DNA of 64,000 bases from NCBI RefSeq assembly GCF_006265175.1, contig NZ_VDCQ01000052.1, positions 1 to 64,000 on the forward strand, in the 5' to 3' direction. Shown piece by piece: positions 1 to 8,694 of the stretch. Within the stretch, counting starts at the first letter, position 1; the number at the start of each line of letters is the position of its first letter. Below the pieces are notes generated by a model. The model did not search any database. It was not told where the DNA came from and saw nothing but the letters and a program-made list of their open reading frames with translations. The DNA is from Paenibacillus hemerocallicola. Lineage in GTDB: Bacteria > Bacillota > Bacilli > Paenibacillales > NBRC-103111. A program made the position numbers and the translations under genes.

Positions 1-3000
1 AGAGCAGCCGAAGCTTTCTCGCTCGTCGTAACGTCCAGCGCATACTCGACATTTTTGTTGTCGGAGCCGCTGTTTACATTGGCAATAGCCGTGTAGGAAG
101 CAACGGAGCCGTTGTTCGCTTTAACCGTACCGACCGAGCCATCGCCGCTTACGCCCAGTGCGGACGAGCGCATGTCGCCTACAGTGATCGTCATGCTTTG
201 ACCGCTATTAGCGCCGATTTGGAACGTAGCTTGGAAGTCGCCAAGCGGCGAGTTTTTCGTCGACACTTCGGGCGCTTTGTCGGAAGCGAAGTCTTCCGTT
301 TGCGTCAGCTTCAACGAACCGTCCGCTTCCACGGAAGCGGTATATTTGTCCTTCAGCTTGGCGTTGCTGTTGATGGCATCAGCCAAAGCTTTGGATTGAT
401 CGGCAATTGTTGCCGCTTCTTTGATAGCCGTCCCGTTGTCGTAGCCGACATGTTGATTTTTGTTGCTGATCGAGATTTCTTGACCGTCTACGATAAACTT
501 CGAGCCGTTAACGAGCAGGTCTTTCTGAGCGATCGTATACTCGCCCTTCGTTCCCGTTGCACGAACATCGAGGTCGGTTGCTTTCAGATCGGTGCCGGAA
601 GCAACTTTCTCCGTGATCGTAATTTCGTTGCCGCTGATCGAAGCGCTGTAGTTGTCTTTCAGCGAAGACAGGTTGATAGCCGCCATCAAGCTTGCCGCTT
701 GATTGTTCAGGTTGCCGCCGCTTACCGAAAACTGACCTTTCGCGCCGGACGCTACGCCGTCAACCGCCGTGAATACGGAGCCGTTGATCTCCACTTTGTC
801 GCCGGCTGCAAAAGCCTTGTCGACACTGAAGGAGTAGGTGCCCTGAACAGCCTCTGTACCGCCGACAAGCGTGTTGGACGCAGTAGCAATCGAGTTGCCC
901 AGCGTCTTCGTATCCCAGTCGCCTTGAGCTTTGAACTCGTATTGGCTGAAGTCGATGGAATCCCATTCGCCGTCCTCGTTGAAGAACTTGAATTCTCCAA
1001 GCTCTTGAACCGCTTTTTGGATTTTCTCGGCCGTGTTTTCTCGTGCGTTTTCTGCGGAAAGGTGGATCGTCAAGTTGCCTTTATCGACGGTTACGTTCAG
1101 TTGATTTTCAACAACTGCAGCTTTACCGCCGGACATGGTGGCAGCTCCGACTTCGATATCGGAAGCCAGGTTTGCGGTATCCCAAGTTCCTGCTCCGGCA
1201 GATGCGGTCCACCCCGAGAAATCGATGCCGTCAATCGTTCCAAGATTTCTAATGGCCGCTTCGACATTGGCAGCGGTATTTTTGGACGCCGTTGCACTAG
1301 CCATATTCAGAGTCAGCGTGCCATCCTTATAAGTCACGTTCAATTCGTCGGTTCCGTTCGCTTTCAATTCGATCTTGACGCCGTTGGCTCTCGGCGACTG
1401 ATTGTCCGCCGTTCCCGAAGAAATCGTGAGGGTCTGGCTGTTCGATTGAACCTGGGAACTTGCAGCGGATGCCGCTTGATCAAGCGCCCTAACGATGGTA
1501 ACCGTATTGAGGTTTTGTCCGCCCTTATTTGTAATCAGCAGCTTGTCGTCCGAGCCCGATCCGGATACGGACAAATCTTCCAGAACTTGACCGGTCGCTT
1601 TGTTGTTCGTTTCCGTCAAAGTTATGGTTCCGTTGGAGGCAACGCTTGCGTATTCGAATCTCGAGCCCAATGCCGAATTCGCTTCGATGGCCGCCGCGAG
1701 ACTTTTCGCCTGATCCTCGATAGAACGGCTGCTGGAAACCGCATCGGCTCCTTTGTCGCTGCTGAAGTTCGCAACCCCGAACGCTGTTTGCAGACGGTTA
1801 AGATCGGCTGGCTGTCCGGCATTGATTACAAACTGCACACTTGAAGTCGGTTGGCCGCCTTGTGACTGTATGACCAACTCATTGGCCGCGTTCAAGCTTA
1901 CATTTGCGTAATCGGATAGCTTATAGCCGTTTTCATCGACCGCATTTTCAACCAGAGCTTCAACATTCGCTCTCGTATAGCCGGTGTCAAGAGTTTTGAG
2001 CGCGCTGTTGCTGATTTTGAAATCTTTGCCGTCAACCGTGATCGAAATGCTGGAATCCGCATGAATTGCATCTGCTCCAACTGCACCGCCGGCAGCGCCC
2101 TGCTGTGGGCCTGAACCCACGTTAGCAAAGTTTCCAGCGTAACCTGTTTTGTTGCCAGTTGCTGCCGCAGCGGTCGAGACGCCTGCATTTTTGGCAGTGA
2201 TAATAAATCCGGTGCCGCCGCCGTTCTTGGCAATGTTATAATCCGCGAGTCCGCCCGCCGTCTTAATCTGATCGAATGCTTGTTTAATCACATCGATTTG
2301 TTCTGAAACCGAATCGTGAGTGCCGCCAGCAGTAGTATCGAACGTTACGGTTGCACCTGTTTTGGATGCTCCTGCAACCCCGGTAGTCGCTCCATCGGTA
2401 CCTCCAATAGCGATTGTGACATCGCCAAAAGTGATATCGAACGACTGACCGCTTGTCAATGCAACACTGAGCGCGCCGGTATCCCATACTGCCGCCCGAC
2501 CGTTGAGATCATCGCCCAGACCAACTACGGCGCCACCCTTGATCTCCGCTACAGTGTTCATTCCGAACGTATCATTTACTTTGGCGGCTTCGTCGCCGGT
2601 AGCCGTCCATGTAATCGGTTGGGTTTGGGGATCCTTCGCCGTAATCGTGATTTTGCCATCGGACGATACCGTTACGTTCGCTACCGTGCTGAGGGCAGTC
2701 CCGCTTCCGTCTCCGGCAGTATCCGCGGCCAATATCGCATTTTTCAGAGCATTTGTTCCACCTGCGCCATTAATGGCATTTAACGCGGTATTATTGATGA
2801 TATAGTTATTTCCGTTAACGTTAATTCTAACAGTTTCGTCTGTTCCCGCGATATTCGTACCGAGGTCATAGGTTCCTTTAGCCGCTTCTCCCGCCGTCAA
2901 CGTAGCTTCAATATTCCCTACATTGAATTCGCCCTTGGAGGCATCGGCGCCGGACAAAACAGCCGTAAATTTCTGGCCGCCGATCGTGACCGAATCGCCC

Positions 3001-4037
3001 GCTTCTTTGAACGCTTCCTTCAATTGGAACTCGTATTCGCCATTTTGCTCCGTCACGCCGCCAGCCAAAGTACCCGTATCGCCTGCGACCGGTACCGTAA
3101 CCGCTTGTCCCGTAATTTGCGAAGCCGGCTCGACGACGGAGATGCGGTTCGTCGAAGTGAAGCCCGTCGACGAATCGTAGTTTTTGATCGACGAGTTCAT
3201 CTCGTTGTACAACTGACCCAGGTTTTTCGCGAGCGAATCGCCGGTAGAGGTTTGTCCGATCGTGAAGATGTAGTTGCCTTGTCCGTCGATTTCCAGACGG
3301 GACCCTTCGCTCTTCGTCGTTCCTTGACGCACGGTAATCGTTTTTCCGTTCAGGTCCGTGCCGTTCTCGGACGCTTGGACGCCGATGCCGACCGTCAGGT
3401 TGATCAATGCTTTCTCGCCTTTGATGCTTTGCGTGTTCTCGGTAATTTCCGATACGCTGCCGGTTGCTTTGCTCGTGGAGCCTTGGACCGAAGTCGAGGA
3501 GGATTCCACTTTCACGCTGCTCGCTACCGTTTTCAGCGCGGTTACCGTACCTTGTGCTACGCCTTTGACACCGTCCGTTACGGTGTTGACAGCCGCGGCC
3601 GATTCCACAACCGCCGCATTTTTACCTTTCAATAACGACTGCGTGTTGAACTCGGTCGTATTGCCGATCCGGTTGATCTCGGACGTCAGCTGGTTGATTT
3701 CCTTCTGGATTTCCTCGCGGTCGACGGATACGTTCGTGTCGTTCGCCGCTTGGGCCGCCAGCTCGCGCATACGCTGCAGGATGGAGTGCGTCTCGTTGAG
3801 CGCGCCTTCCGTCGTTTGGATCATCGAGATGCCGTCTTGCGAGTTGCGTTGCGCTTGGTCCAGACCGCGGATTTGCGCGCGCATTTTCTCGGAGATCGCG
3901 AGACCTGCCGCGTCGTCGCCCGCGCGGTTGATGCGGAGACCCGAGGACAGCTTCTCGATCGATTTGCCGCTTGCCGTCGAGTTCGTGCTCATTTGACGGT
4001 ACGTGTTCAGTGCTGCGATGTTGTGATTAATTCTCAT
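1..4037 (-). CDS. hag: Giant flagellin, 3' end cut by window edge
   Basis: Open without a stop from the ATG at 4037 to the window edge (1,345 codons), so the C-terminal D0 helix lies outside. It forms the flagellar filament after type III export. Residues 1 to about 150 are a standard flagellin N-terminal D0/D1 domain ([16 protein letters not shown], then [20 protein letters not shown]). A C-terminal D1 start (ALGV block) appears at about residue 1270. Between them lie about 1,100 residues of Ser/Thr/Gly/Asn-rich beta repeats, several like flagellin-IN motifs (for example [16 protein letters not shown]). Typical flagellins are 270-500 residues, so the variable region is enormously expanded. 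No HExxH protease motif was seen, which argues against flagellinolysin. The ribosome binding site AAGGAGG lies 9 bases upstream and is itself inside a hairpin. The gene lies downstream of csrA on the same strand. Confidence 0.93.
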
Positions 4038-4043
4038 TGCTGG

Positions 4044-4058
4044 ATTCCTCCTTGGAAT
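4044..4058 (-). promoter_or_regulatory. CsrA-type hairpin over the flagellin ribosome binding site
   Basis: On the mRNA strand ATTCC-AAGGA-GGAAT forms a perfect 5-bp stem with AAGGA in the loop. The Shine-Dalgarno sequence AAGGAGG is inside the hairpin. This is the position of CsrA site BS2 in the B. subtilis hag leader, where CsrA binding blocks ribosome access. The fold is seen in the sequence; CsrA binding is inferred. Confidence 0.7.
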
Positions 4059-4062
4059 GTTT

Positions 4063-4084
4063 AGGTGAACATCCTTTTTCACCT
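4063..4084 (-). promoter_or_regulatory. Second CsrA-type hairpin in the flagellin leader
   Basis: The mRNA reads AGGTGAA-AAAGGATG-TTCACCT: a perfect 7-bp stem with an 8-base loop holding AAGGATG, which matches the core of the CsrA consensus (A-R-GGA-U-G). It lies just upstream of the ribosome-binding-site hairpin, as BS1 does in B. subtilis hag, so a CsrA dimer could bridge both. Confidence 0.7.
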
Positions 4085-4135
4085 TTGGAACGATGAAGCT
4101 ATATAATAAACCGCCCCGGAAAGAGCGTTTATTAC

Positions 4136-4222
4136 CCAAAAAACGACAAAAAGGACGAGTTTATCCCGTCTGCACTCTTGGCATCCTGCCATTCGTCAGA
4201 CTTCGACAAAACTCGTCCTTGA
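4136..4222 (-). terminator. Triple-stem terminator-like RNA element between csrA and the flagellin (element 1)
   Basis: On the mRNA strand the outer arms AAGGACGAGTTT and AAACTCGTCCTT pair over 12 bp and are followed by a U-rich tract (TTTTTGTCGTTTTTT), as in an intrinsic terminator. The roughly 46-base interior is structured: helix GTCTG/CAGAC encloses hairpin TGGC-AGGAT-GCCA with GGA in the loop. The same architecture recurs upstream of csrA (4474-4556). It could terminate csrA transcripts or act as a regulated attenuator before the flagellin. I do not recognise it as a named riboswitch class. Confidence 0.7.
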
Positions 4223-4260
4223 GACCTAAATATAGTTGCTGTAAAATTAATAATCAGTGA

Positions 4261-4428
4261 TTACCGGGAGGCATAGTCGGCTTCGTATACTTCACCGCGG
4301 AGTATCGGAATTTCTTTCGGCGCATCGATGGCGAGACGGAGATCCCCATCCTTGGTTCGAACGACTTGAACCTTGACGTCATGTCCAATCATTACATATT
4401 CTCCGGGTTTTCGGCCCAATACCAACAT
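4261..4428 (-). CDS. csrA: Carbon storage regulator CsrA
   Basis: A 55-residue protein beginning MLVLGRKPGEYVMIG and ending with the IDAPKEIPILRGEVYE block that holds the conserved RNA-binding arginine. CsrA is a dimeric RNA-binding protein that represses translation by occupying GGA motifs in hairpin loops; in Bacillus it represses flagellin synthesis and is antagonised by FliW. The ATG at 4428 follows GAGGAGG by a normal distance; longer in-frame upstream starts only add non-homologous residues. At 55 residues it is slightly shorter than usual (60-80), but the fold-defining part is complete. The flagellin gene follows on the same strand. No fliW lies next to it here, unlike the usual fliW-csrA pair. 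Confidence 0.95.
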   Translation of the reverse strand: MLVLGRKPGEYVMIGHDVKVQVVRTKDGDLRLAIDAPKEIPILRGEVYEADYASR

Positions 4429-4447
4429 CTGAGATCCTCCTCTATGT

Positions 4448-4467
4448 GCTGCGTCCTGCCGCGCAGC
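4448..4467 (-). promoter_or_regulatory. GGA-loop hairpin in the csrA leader
   Basis: The mRNA reads GCTGCG-CGGCAGGA-CGCAGC: a 6-bp stem with CAGGA in the loop, about 20 bases before the csrA start. It contains the 9-mer GCAGGACGC, identical to the core of the neighbouring element at 4474-4556. It is a plausible CsrA autoregulation site. Confidence 0.5.
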
Positions 4468-4473
4468 CGCCGG

Positions 4474-4556
4474 AAACAAAATAAGGATGGCTAATAAGAC
4501 CGTCTCCCTTCCGCGTCCTGCGGAGAAGAGACGAACCTTACTAAGCCATCCTTGAC
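4474..4556 (-). ncRNA. Triple-stem attenuator-like RNA element in the csrA leader (element 2)
   Basis: Outer arms AAGGATGGCT and AGCCATCCTT (10 bp, extended by a bulged AGTAAG/CTTATT helix) enclose helix GTCTC/GAGAC, which encloses hairpin TCCGC-AGGAC-GCGGA. A U-rich stretch (TTATTTTGTTT) follows. The order of parts, the GCAGGAYGC core and the start UCAAGGAYG match element 1 downstream of csrA. It lies between the sigma-D promoter and csrA, so it is transcribed as leader RNA. Function is inferred only: attenuator, CsrA binding platform, or both. Confidence 0.6.
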
Positions 4557-4613
4557 TTGTCGTAATTATTCGATTTACGGGACTATATGCCCAAATTTTC
4601 GTGCCTACTACCA

Positions 4614-4641
4614 ATATCGGCGGTCCATATCCAAAAGTTTA
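4614..4641 (-). promoter_or_regulatory. Sigma-D (flagellar) promoter for csrA
   Basis: On the minus strand TAAA is followed by 16 bases and then GCCGATAT, an exact match to the B. subtilis sigma-D -10 element with an allowed spacer. Transcription would start near 4606, giving csrA a leader of about 175 bases that includes element 2. I found no comparable sigma-D match directly before the flagellin. Confidence 0.75.
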
Positions 4642-4709: not shown

Positions 4710-6260
4710 ATGACGGTCTTACATAGAGGAAGCAGTACAATTTTTTACAAGCTTGAACCGGGCGATGCGGAGCCGGATGCGGAGCAGCTTGTCTTTGTGC
4801 ATGGAAATAGGACGACCCATACTTGTTTCGACTTGCTCGTCCCTTTCTTGAACGACCGATTTCCGCTTATCCGCTACGACCTCCGGGGATTCGGCCGGAG
4901 CGATCTGGGCGATGCGCCGCTCAGCTTGGAAGCGTATTGCGACGATCTGCTGCATCTGGTCCGGACCTTGGGGATACGTCCGTTTCATCTAATCGGATAC
5001 GGCTTCGGAGCGATTGTTGCCGCCCGGTTCGCCGTGCTGTATCCCGAGTCGGTCAAAAGCATGGTGCTCATCTCTCTTCCGTTCAGTCCAGATCCTTCGG
5101 CGGTCAACAATCCCGATTGCTTGGAAACGCCATCATCCAAAGGAACTGCAGGTTCGGTCGATAGGCTCGCCGATTTGATGGCCAGTCTTCCGTCGGACCA
5201 CCCGATACACGGGAAAATCGATTTCGCCGCACTCCCCTCCACTTGCCATTGGATTACCGAATTAAGCATGCGGTATCAACCTATAGACGATTTGGAGCGC
5301 TTGTCCGTCCCGACGCTGCTATTATGCGGGGAAGAGGAAAATTCGTCCCCCGTCTACTTGTCCTTGATGGCAGCCTTCTACTTATCCGAGTACAAGCTCT
5401 ATACGGTGCCGGATTCCGCTTATATGGTCTTGCTGGACCAGCCCGCTCTTACGGCAACCTGGATTGCGAACTTTATTGGCAAGCTCGGTCGGAAGCCGAT
5501 CGCAGAAGAAGCCAAGCCGAAGTCCCGCGATATGCAGCAATATATGAAGCAATTGATAAAGATTGGGGAAGCGGCTGTCGCTTCCGGTGACGAACTGCGA
5601 GTAGAGCTATTGGAAGGCTTTCACGTGTATGCAAACGGAATGGAGATCAAGGGCGGCTGGAACCAGCGGTTTGCCAAAAATATTTTTCTATACTTGCTCC
5701 TCCACCGATCCGTAAGCCGCGATCAGCTGTGCGAGACGTTATGGCCGAATCTTCCGCTCGGCAAAGCCCGCAGCTACTTGAGAGTATATTTATCCCATCT
5801 CAAAAAACTGCTGGAGCCGTCGAACCGCGCGCCCGCTTTTCTTATCATGGAACGCGAGGATGTCAGCTTATATGGAAGAATAGTTTGCGACGCGCTCGAT
5901 TTCGTGCAGGATATAACGATAGCCTCCCAAGAGGAGGATGACCGGAAGAAGCTGGCGCAATGCCGCAAAATATTTCAAACCTTGCCGGTCACGTTCTTTC
6001 AGAGCCTGTACGACGACTGGTTCCTCATGATGCGCGAGGAATGGGAGCATAATCTGGAAAGCCTCGCGGTCTGGATGGCCGATTATTTTATCCAGCAAGG
6101 CAACCCGCAGGAGGCCTCGGTTCATCTGAAGCATATGCTCCGCATACTGCCGAAAAACGAAACGCTGGTCGACAAGCTTATTGTCTGCTACGAGCGAAGC
6201 AAGGATGTGCCCAGCAAGGAATACTGGAAAAAGCAAAAGGATTTGTTTGACGCTTCTTAA
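4710..6260 (+). CDS. Alpha/beta-hydrolase-fold sensor fused to BTAD transcriptional regulator
   Basis: A 516-residue fusion. Residues about 20-265 are an alpha/beta hydrolase fold (FVHGN oxyanion region, YDLRGFGRSD, HLIGYGFGA). Residues about 294-385 are an OmpR-type winged helix and about 390-510 a helical BTAD repeat domain, as in SARP-like activators. The nucleophile elbow G-Y-G-F-G has Gly98 instead of the catalytic Ser, and the region that should carry the catalytic His reads PDSAYMVLLDQP with Ala237. The hydrolase half is therefore probably a ligand-binding sensor, not an enzyme. The gene diverges from csrA with 69 bases to the sigma-D promoter; its ribosome binding site (GGAAGGA) is weak. 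Target genes are unknown. Confidence 0.85.
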   Translation: MTVLHRGSSTIFYKLEPGDAEPDAEQLVFVHGNRTTHTCFDLLVPFLNDRFPLIRYDLRGFGRSDLGDAPLSLEAYCDDLLHLVRTLGIRPFHLIGYGFGAIVAARFAVLYPESVKSMVLISLPFSPDPSAVNNPDCLETPSSKGTAGSVDRLADLMASLPSDHPIHGKIDFAALPSTCHWITELSMRYQPIDDLERLSVPTLLLCGEEENSSPVYLSLMAAFYLSEYKLYTVPDSAYMVLLDQPALTATWIANFIGKLGRKPIAEEAKPKSRDMQQYMKQLIKIGEAAVASGDELRVELLEGFHVYANGMEIKGGWNQRFAKNIFLYLLLHRSVSRDQLCETLWPNLPLGKARSYLRVYLSHLKKLLEPSNRAPAFLIMEREDVSLYGRIVCDALDFVQDITIASQEEDDRKKLAQCRKIFQTLPVTFFQSLYDDWFLMMREEWEHNLESLAVWMADYFIQQGNPQEASVHLKHMLRILPKNETLVDKLIVCYERSKDVPSKEYWKKQKDLFDAS

Positions 6261-6883: not shown

Positions 6884-6925
6884 CATTGCTATCGCTCCCC
6901 CGGCGTACCTATATCGCCTCTAGAA

Positions 6926-6966
6926 GGAGACCCACTTCGGCCGATGCCGGGCGGAGTCTCTTCTTT
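6926..6966 (+). terminator. Terminator after nikR
   Basis: GAGAC (6927-6931) pairs with GTCTC (6956-6960) around an inner CGGC/GCCG stem, followed by TTCTTT. Confidence 0.6.
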
Positions 6967-7025
6967 ACGTTGCGCTGAATAAGGATACAACCCGGAATGG
7001 ATTGAATTTTTTTCCCTAAAATGTC

Positions 7026-7054
7026 TTACCATCCGGATACAATCGTGCTACAAT
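7026..7054 (+). promoter_or_regulatory. Sigma-A promoter of the nik operon
   Basis: -35 TTACCA and -10 TACAAT are separated by 17 bases. The octamer GGATACAA occurs inside the spacer (7035) and again 52 bases upstream (6983), possible regulator contacts, though no E. coli-type NikR palindrome was seen. The promoter overlaps an upstream ATG at 7021, which rules that codon out as the nikA start. Confidence 0.65.
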
Positions 7055-7092
7055 ACAAACAAAACGTGTCACAAAGAAAAGGATGGGTTAAC

Positions 7093-8694
7093 GTGTTGGG
7101 AAAAAGAACTCGATTACATGTGCTGCTCGTGTCGCTGCTCGTATGCTGCGTCCTCGCGAGCTGCTCCGCCAAAAGTACGGGCGGCGAACGCAAGGCGGAC
7201 GAGCTCGTGCTCGCCGTCGGCGCCGAGCCCGAAGCCGGATTCGATCCGACGACAGGCTGGGGACGCTATGGCTCGCCGCTGTTCCAGAGCACGCTGCTGA
7301 AGCGCGACTCCCAGATGAAGATCGTCAATGACCTGGCCGCGTCCGGGTACGAAGTAACCGCCGATGGAACGGTATGGACCGTCAAGCTGCGCAAGGACGC
7401 GAAGTTTTCCGACGGCAAGCCGGTTACCGCCGCCGACGTCAAATTTACGTTCGAGACCGCCGCAGGCAACGGTTCGGTTATCGATCTCACGAACATGAAA
7501 AGCGTGGAAGCGGCCGACGAGTACACGGTCAAATTTACATTAAAGGAAGCCCAGTCTACGTTCGTAACCCAGCTCATCACGACCGGGATCGTCCCGAAGC
7601 ACGCATATGGCAAAGACTACGCCGAACGACCTGTCGGATCGGGCCCGTATAAGCTCGTTCAATGGAATAAAGGCCAGCAGGTTATCGTCGAGGCCAACCC
7701 CGACTATTACGGCAAGAAGCCCTTCTTCAAGAAGCTTACGTTCCTGTTCCTCGGTGAAGATGCCGCCTATGCCGCCGCCAAAGCGAAAAAGGTCGATGTC
7801 TCTTACATCCCGGCGGCGTTCAGCAAACAGAAAATAGACGGAATGCGGCTGGAAGCCGTTCGCACGGTCGACAACCGGGGCATTTCGTTCCCTTTCGTGA
7901 AGTCCGGGGCGAAAACGAAGGACGGTTACCCGATCGGCAACGACGTTACCGCCGACACCGCCATTCGCAAAGCGATCAATACGGCGATCGATCGGAAAGC
8001 GCTCGTACAAGGCGTGCTGGAAGGCTACGGAACGCCCGCTTACACGGTAAATGACGGCCTGCCATGGTATAATCCGAGCTCGGCCATTGCCGACGCCAAT
8101 GCCGCAGGCGCCAAAAAGCTGTTGGAGGAAGCCGGTTGGAAGGACGGCAACGGCGACGGCGTACTGGAAAAAGGGACATTAAAGGCGCAGTTTGCGCTCA
8201 TCTACCCTTCCGGCGACGTAACAAGGCAGTCTCTCGCTTTGGCAACCGCCGATATGATCAAGCCGATCGGTATCCAAATCGACGTACAAGGCAAGAGCTG
8301 GGACGACATCGGGAAGCTGATGCACGCCAACGCCGTCCTCATGGGCTGGGGCAGCAACGATCCCTTGGAAATGTACAACGTCTACAGCAGCAAGTATGGC
8401 GGTGTCGAGTATTACAATACCGGGTTCTACAGCAATCCGACGGTGGACGATTGGATGAATAAGGCGCTTAAAGCGACACGCGACGAAGACGCCCTGGAGT
8501 ATTGGAAAAAAGCCCAGTGGGACGGCAAAACCGGCGTAAGCGCCCAAGGAGACGCCCCGTGGGCGTGGCTCGTCAATATCGATCATCTGTATCTGGTCAA
8601 GGACAGCCTCGATATCGGCAAGCAGCGCATACATCCGCACGGCCACGGCTGGCCCGTGACCGATAATATCGAAGAATGGACATGGAAGCAATAA
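7093..8694 (+). CDS. nikA: Nickel ABC transporter substrate-binding lipoprotein (NikA-like)
   Basis: A family 5 (peptide/nickel) solute-binding protein of 533 residues. The signal peptide ends in lipobox LASC, so it is anchored outside the membrane and passes nickel or a nickel chelate to the NikB/NikC channel. The body shows typical SBP_bac_5 motifs (LRKDAKFSDGKPVTAADVKFTF; VGSGPYKLVQW). The C-terminus contains HPHGHGWPVTDNIEEW, a His cluster seen in Firmicute nickel-type members and a likely metal ligand. The GTG start at 7093 is chosen because it follows AAAGGATGG and lies downstream of the promoter. First gene of nikABCDE, next to nikR, so nickel is the best substrate call; an oligopeptide remains possible. 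Confidence 0.88.
   Translation: MLGKRTRLHVLLVSLLVCCVLASCSAKSTGGERKADELVLAVGAEPEAGFDPTTGWGRYGSPLFQSTLLKRDSQMKIVNDLAASGYEVTADGTVWTVKLRKDAKFSDGKPVTAADVKFTFETAAGNGSVIDLTNMKSVEAADEYTVKFTLKEAQSTFVTQLITTGIVPKHAYGKDYAERPVGSGPYKLVQWNKGQQVIVEANPDYYGKKPFFKKLTFLFLGEDAAYAAAKAKKVDVSYIPAAFSKQKIDGMRLEAVRTVDNRGISFPFVKSGAKTKDGYPIGNDVTADTAIRKAINTAIDRKALVQGVLEGYGTPAYTVNDGLPWYNPSSAIADANAAGAKKLLEEAGWKDGNGDGVLEKGTLKAQFALIYPSGDVTRQSLALATADMIKPIGIQIDVQGKSWDDIGKLMHANAVLMGWGSNDPLEMYNVYSSKYGGVEYYNTGFYSNPTVDDWMNKALKATRDEDALEYWKKAQWDGKTGVSAQGDAPWAWLVNIDHLYLVKDSLDIGKQRIHPHGHGWPVTDNIEEWTWKQ

Follow-up and report, generated by a model that had tools for sequence, protein, structure and literature searches.

The window analyzed here (64,000 nucleotides) is contig C116 of the 9.65-Mb genome of the soil bacterium Paenibacillus hemerocallicola. 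At its first edge the minus strand carries, in order, a sigma-D promoter, a long hairpin H1, the gene csrA2, a second long hairpin H2, two short hairpins BS1 and BS2, and the flagellin gene hag2. The features of the locus, all on the minus strand and listed from promoter to flagellin, are as follows:

4614–4641, minus strand: sigma-D (sigma-28) promoter TAAA-N16-GCCGATAT, a perfect consensus match and the predicted start of the module transcript
4543–4558, minus strand: P0 of H1, AAGTC-AAGGAT-GGCTT, mutually exclusive with the base of H1 and judged against a flank-swap control
4477–4555, minus strand: H1, long GGA hairpin with a U-rich tail upstream of csrA2 (−43.6 kcal/mol, z −9.5)
4510–4524, minus strand: H1 apical GGA loop, TCCGC-AGGAC-GCGGA
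4448–4467, minus strand: GGA-loop hairpin in the csrA2 leader, GCTGCG-CGGCAGGA-CGCAGC, part of the excess of GGA hairpins in this leader
4431–4442, minus strand: csrA2 Shine–Dalgarno sequence within a short GGA hairpin, GAG-GAGGAT-CTC, a short stem that is weak evidence and marks a possible autoregulation site
4261–4428, minus strand: csrA2, 55 aa, GRKPG-type with no C-terminal extension (PF02599, E=2.8e-21)
4212–4223, minus strand: P0 of H2, CTC-AAGGAC-GAG, judged against a flank-swap control
4144–4222, minus strand: H2, long GGA hairpin with a U-rich tail between csrA2 and the flagellin gene (−35.0 kcal/mol, z −5.9)
4179–4191, minus strand: H2 apical GGA loop, TGGC-AGGAT-GCCA
4105–4133, minus strand: H3, small leader hairpin with a variable stem between H2 and BS1, found by eye
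4063–4084, minus strand: BS1, AGGTGAA-AAAGGATG-TTCACCT, 7 bp stem and 8-nt loop
4044–4058, minus strand: BS2, ATTCC-AAGGA-GGAAT, 5 bp stem and 5-nt loop, over the Shine–Dalgarno sequence
3–4037, minus strand: hag2, giant flagellin (PF00669, Flagellin_N, E=4.4e-48), cut by the contig edge

The hag2 reading frame starts at an ATG at 4037–4035, runs for at least 1,345 aa and is still open at the contig edge. A second flagellin gene in the same genome, the fliW-linked copy hag1, encodes at least 947 aa, so giant size is not peculiar to the flagellin behind the hag2 leader. Both giant flagellins leave their contigs at identical sequence (window 1–40, minus strand, on C116; 7700–7765, plus strand, of locus L007 on C87), and because both run off at the same sequence their C-terminal part is probably a collapsed assembly repeat. 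The nearest named relative found is Paenibacillus mesophilus (locus L015), whose csrA2 is 89% identical. On sequence evidence, BS1 and BS2 form the end of a larger conserved RNA module around csrA2.

GGA hairpins in the flagellin leader

The initial annotation placed two GGA-loop hairpins in the hag2 leader, and both are present on the minus strand, with the BS2 loop containing the start of the AAGGAGG Shine–Dalgarno sequence it covers. The leader as a whole has an unremarkable folding energy (z −0.80; 39/200 shuffles fold equally well), which was not used as evidence; the combination of one GGA-loop hairpin with a stem of 7 bp or longer and another of 5 bp or longer arises in just 0.5% of dinucleotide shuffles of the leader. 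Conservation makes a stronger argument for BS1 and BS2 than these chance statistics. A BS1-type GGA-loop hairpin occupies about −53 to −23 in 27/27 flagellin leaders examined, with 12 different versions of its inner 5-nt strands. Covariation among relatives, named at the outset as a check on the leader stems, bears out BS1: 90/90 inner pairs are kept across 18 stem variants, compared to 45.0±5.9 pairs (maximum 68; 0/5000 reaching 90) when 5′ strands are swapped among the variants, and since these variants were chosen as hairpins from the leader listing the figure describes maintained pairing over differing stems, not an unbiased detection rate. The stems range from AGGTGAA/TTCACCT to CGGCGGA/TCCGCCG, GTGTGAA/TTCACAC, AGGATGC/GCATCCT, GAATGCA/TGCATTC, AGATAGA/TCTATCT and CCCAC/GTGGG. 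BS2 is clear in type-A modules and in fliW-linked hag1 leaders, and weaker in type-B modules, where the Shine–Dalgarno site reads ACATGGAGG with little or no stem. In the type-A modules L016, L017 and L019, the small hairpin H3 occupies an equivalent position.

The B. subtilis hag leader has two CsrA sites (PMC8523840; PMC7652899), and the binding of CsrA to BS1 and BS2 is credited in those two papers to Yakhnin 2007. The likeness to this leader drawn in the initial annotation holds for two GGA sites ahead of a flagellin gene, the downstream one on the Shine–Dalgarno sequence, and for a covarying BS1; it does not extend to FliW control. Given this layout and the covarying BS1 stem, the comparison is sound as one of layout, and a B. 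subtilis-like reading of the hag2 leader, with predicted repression by CsrA, appears well supported. Tight translational metering of hag2, which had been read from the same layout, may follow from such repression. Unlike B. subtilis hag, hag2 adjoins a second csrA that lacks a neighboring fliW, whereas B. subtilis CsrA is under FliW control; in addition, the long GGA hairpins H1 and H2 flank csrA2 and the flagellin is giant. Long GGA hairpins around csrA are not described for B. subtilis in the literature examined.

csrA2 and the FliW census

No fliW lies near csrA2, and the single fliW of the genome is on C87 beside csrA1. GRKPG-type CsrA proteins are 51–67 aa long (n=30) compared to 74–84 aa for fliW-type or fliW-linked CsrA, a comparison in which the one 59-aa protein counted as "other" is the GRKPG relative of L098. 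A PDB search with CsrA2 returned a CsrA/RsmA chain as the best match (7yr6, E=5e-9) and placed 5dmb last, whereas 5dmb, which we take to be the CsrA–FliW complex, was the best match for CsrA1 of the same genome. The C-terminal extension of CsrA is the part that binds FliW (PMC7652899). From the shorter length of CsrA2, its missing extension and the order of PDB matches, we infer CsrA2 to be unresponsive to FliW. The locus thus resembles FliW–CsrA–Hag partner switching in having flagellin mRNA as the target of the same RNA-binding protein family, and the genes of that system occur in the same genome together with hag1; it differs in that a GRKPG-type CsrA without the FliW-bound extension stands here with no adjacent fliW.

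Across 15/15 genomes checked, there is exactly one fliW per genome and it adjoins a csrA. The number of csrA genes varies, with one in three same-genus genomes that lack the long hairpins and at least three in the twelve genomes that have them; P. hemerocallicola has five csrA genes and one fliW.

The long hairpin family around csrA2

AAGGA(U/C)G opens both H1 and H2, and the apical loop of each contains AGGA. An apical loop with GGA is present in 31/36 long hairpins, and the five that lack it are each the first of a tandem pair. Spacing between the basal and apical GGA is 28–34 nt across the long hairpins. The basal GGA can alternatively be presented in the loop of P0, a small hairpin that cannot coexist with a closed base of the long terminator-like stem (for example ACUC-AAGGAC-GAGU, GGUC-AAGGAU-GACC, GCUC-AAGGAU-GAGC and AGUC-AGGAC-GACU). 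The mean length of the P0 stem over 30 distinct copies is 4.1 bp compared to 3.33±0.19 bp after swapping of upstream flanks (4/5000) and 2.13±0.23 bp with random flanks, and 21/30 copies reach at least 4 bp compared to 12.2±2.0 after the flank swap (0/5000). In sequence terms, P0 (1:2) and the terminator base (2:3) compete as the alternative pairings of an attenuator do. Since the complete long hairpins greatly exceed P0 in stability, P0 could play a part only while the RNA is being transcribed or if CsrA holds it in place. The csrA2 leader contains four GGA hairpins compared to 1.05±0.89 in shuffles (0/300), and the clostridial L153 leader contains six compared to 1.67±1.07 (0/300); the excess is not significant in 5/7 stretches, including L155 and the csrA2–hag2 gap of P. 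hemerocallicola, where 26–59 of 300 shuffles match it.

We aligned 17 long hairpins and built from them a covariance model, R1. Both sides have changed in 18/25 pairs of the alignment, and its covariation score is 0.600 compared to 0.257±0.022 after column shuffling and 0.08–0.16 for slid structures. Over the 9.65-Mb genome, R1 (E≤1) gave four matches, all beside csrA genes: H1 (E=3e-11) and H2 (E=1.6e-10), both training copies of the model, and two on C89, immediately before a truncated csrA that starts with MLVLGRKPGRAAV. R1 matches were absent from the extra csrA loci of this genome at C46:25519–25668 and C145:42730–42879. The C89 locus (L009, about 6900–7165, minus strand) places the truncated MLVLGRKPGRAAV gene behind two tandem GGA hairpins, has an intact csrA some 0.8 kb further upstream, and is apparently a decayed copy of a hag2-type module.

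A search at E≤1e-4 in 104 genomes of the family and 392 of the order found R1 matches in 12 genomes, some of them the training sequences of the model; because the large searches scored part of the candidates only, absence from a genome is less certain than presence. In all 12 the hairpins stand beside a GRKPG-type csrA, mostly followed by a flagellin gene; the csrA of L078 reads LRRKPGEF and was recognized in the comparison of CsrA lengths. A family census (n=103) found hairpins in 9/10 genomes with an extra GRKPG-type csrA and in 0/93 others, the exception (G100) having a single such gene without hairpins. The number of independent lineages among the module-bearing genomes may be small. In the class Clostridia, 4/391 genomes match R1, three of them at csrA loci; the fourth match (L154), in neither csrA nor flagellin context, was set aside as chance. 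Clostridial locus L151 has a similar long hairpin directly upstream of a flagellin gene, with no csrA in the stretch examined, and R1 gave no match at the more distant csrA loci L024–L047. Paenibacillus species share all or some of the layout of hairpin or hairpins, csrA, hairpin and flagellin, as do one Brevibacillus MAG and one Vallitalea MAG, and Clostridium ljungdahlii has one long hairpin before csrA and a flagellin gene after it.

Membership of H1 and H2 in an Rfam family was rejected, as none matched at gathering score: among the CsrB, CsrC and RsmX/Y/Z models PrrB_RsmZ gave 15.2 bits against a cut-off of 44, and RF01731 (TwoAYGGAY) gave no match even at a permissive E-value. Outside Gammaproteobacteria, CsrA binding has been predicted for TwoAYGGAY and for the reverse complement of Bacillaceae-1 (PMC4333381). 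They share with H1 and H2 GGA terminal loops, occurrence in Clostridia and Bacillales, and proposed CsrA binding; the architecture of H1 and H2 differs in being one long terminator-like stem. RF01690 (Bacillaceae-1) gave a sub-threshold partial match opposite H1 (window 4475–4524, plus strand; 21.4 bits against a cut-off of 35), of interest because its reverse complement is predicted to bind CsrA, and gave no match in 13 other hairpin loci.

H1/H2 and the L153 leader show the mark of CsrB and RsmZ, several GGA-loop hairpins within non-coding RNA. H1 and H2 resemble CsrB, CsrC, RsmX, RsmY and RsmZ in their several AGGA-loop hairpins and expected CsrA/RsmA binding, and the proteins are akin in that CsrA2 finds its best PDB match in a CsrA/RsmA chain. 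In contrast to these decoys, H1 and H2 lie in cis, in the leader and between the genes of a csrA–flagellin operon, follow a sigma-D type promoter where BarA/UvrY control is a feature of the gammaproteobacterial systems, and in Paenibacillus offer just two GGA sites per hairpin. No description of the csrA2–H1/H2–hag2 module was found in the open-licence literature.

A candidate RNA route to CsrA2 control

The sigma-D element GCCGATAT also stands upstream of the hairpins in L015, L017, L019 and L070, with the variants GTCGATAT in L068, L072, L073 and L077 and GCCGATAA in L022; it is weak or was not found by scan in L020, L021, L069, L079, L153 and L155. The sigma-D −10 core CGATA is absent from the csrA–hag gap in 9/9 modules tested and present at about −102 to −106 in 5/5 hag1 leaders, a test that replaced a TAA-anchored sigma-D scan of the csrA2–hag2 gap that missed the hag1 promoters too. 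From the sigma-D site before H1 and the lack of CGATA in csrA–hag gaps we infer that hag2 is co-transcribed with H1, csrA2 and H2, which would place both long hairpins inside the hag2 mRNA.

These features fit a model that we consider reasonably probable, a FliW-independent CsrA–flagellin operon in which CsrA2 represses hag2 and H1 and H2 set the level of free CsrA2. The sigma-D promoter would drive a single transcript through H1, csrA2, H2, BS1, BS2 and hag2, and CsrA2 dimers would bridge BS1 and BS2 and shut the ribosome off hag2, as CsrA does on hag in B. subtilis. H1 and H2 would each offer two further CsrA-type sites some 30–34 nt apart, the apical GGA loop and P0, whose basal GGA loop would form only while the base of the long stem is open. 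Binding of CsrA by H1/H2 and by BS1/BS2 is the part of the model in which we have high confidence, and CsrA2 is the most likely protein bound at H1 and H2. The RNA of these hairpins, freed by termination or cleavage, could then act as a decoy, a role with a little under an even chance; CsrA2 on P0 and the apex could also, or instead, decide the closing of the terminator stem, an attenuation role that we propose more tentatively and that is compatible with the decoy. In either case the RNA elements would replace FliW, the protein antagonist with which CsrA2 is not expected to interact.

Ordinary intrinsic terminators would likewise present stable stems and trailing U-rich tails, with H1 an attenuator, H2 the csrA2 terminator, CsrA bound by BS1 and BS2 alone and a hag2 promoter that was missed; simple consensus scans indeed leave room for another promoter type near hag2, and basal GGA conservation could partly reflect the needs of a terminator stem. 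This account is improbable: AGGA in the apical loop (31/36) and the competing basal GGA hairpin are kept while stems change, the hairpins are confined to GRKPG-type csrA and flagellin loci, and all nine csrA–hag gaps lack a sigma-D −10 core. We treat it only as a rival, because the loop letters and not the stems alone are conserved. A reading that leaves out CsrA altogether, in which BS2, and BS1 with it, serves only as an RNA thermometer or stability hairpin that sequesters the ribosome site or stabilizes the 5′ end of the mRNA, draws on the position of BS2 on the Shine–Dalgarno sequence and on the fact that any hairpin over AAGGAGG includes GGA. It is highly improbable, since the GGA of the BS1 loop is conserved though BS1 stems change completely, csrA adjoins the flagellin gene and BS1 is clear of the Shine–Dalgarno sequence.

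Closer to the favored model is a purely CsrA-responsive attenuator, in which the terminator stem is kept open by CsrA spanning P0 and the newly made apical loop, and csrA2–hag2 is autoregulated with no decoy in trans. The conserved competing pairings 1:2 (P0) and 2:3 (terminator base) with their flank covariation, the near-constant 28–34 nt between the two GGA sites and the predicted single transcript through H1 and H2 all agree with it. We nevertheless consider it rather unlikely as the whole explanation, as the L153 leader has, beyond its terminator-like stem, a further three GGA hairpins, which a decoy fits better, and long stems are possible RNase III substrates, a point that we count against attenuation alone.

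CsrA RNA decoys are established in Gammaproteobacteria, and Gram-positive bacteria are thought to use FliW. Whether FliW and sRNAs act jointly in any species remains to be determined according to a 2020 review (PMC7652899), and BarA–UvrY, the sRNA route, and FliW are strongly anti-correlated (PMC4682653). The P. hemerocallicola genome holds both a fliW–csrA–hag operon and a fliW-less csrA–flagellin module rich in GGA hairpins, which makes the question of FliW plus RNA directly testable in named species that have the module, for example Paenibacillus mesophilus, P. methanolicus or Clostridium ljungdahlii. The chances seem evenly balanced that H1 and H2 represent a CsrA-binding RNA family, both decoy and attenuator, that controls a FliW-independent Gram-positive CsrA, so that FliW and RNA antagonists coexist in one organism. 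If true, some Gram-positive bacteria could control CsrA by RNA instead of, or alongside, FliW, and the module, a candidate new RNA family, would offer a comparative handle on the multiple CsrA paralogs of Firmicutes.

Large regulators lie near three csrA loci of this genome: a MalT/BTAD protein on C46 (L010, 2262–5357, plus strand), a response regulator–BTAD protein on C89 (L009, 9046–10185, minus strand) and, near csrA2, an alpha/beta hydrolase that weakly matches Trans_reg_C (window 4710–6257, plus strand).
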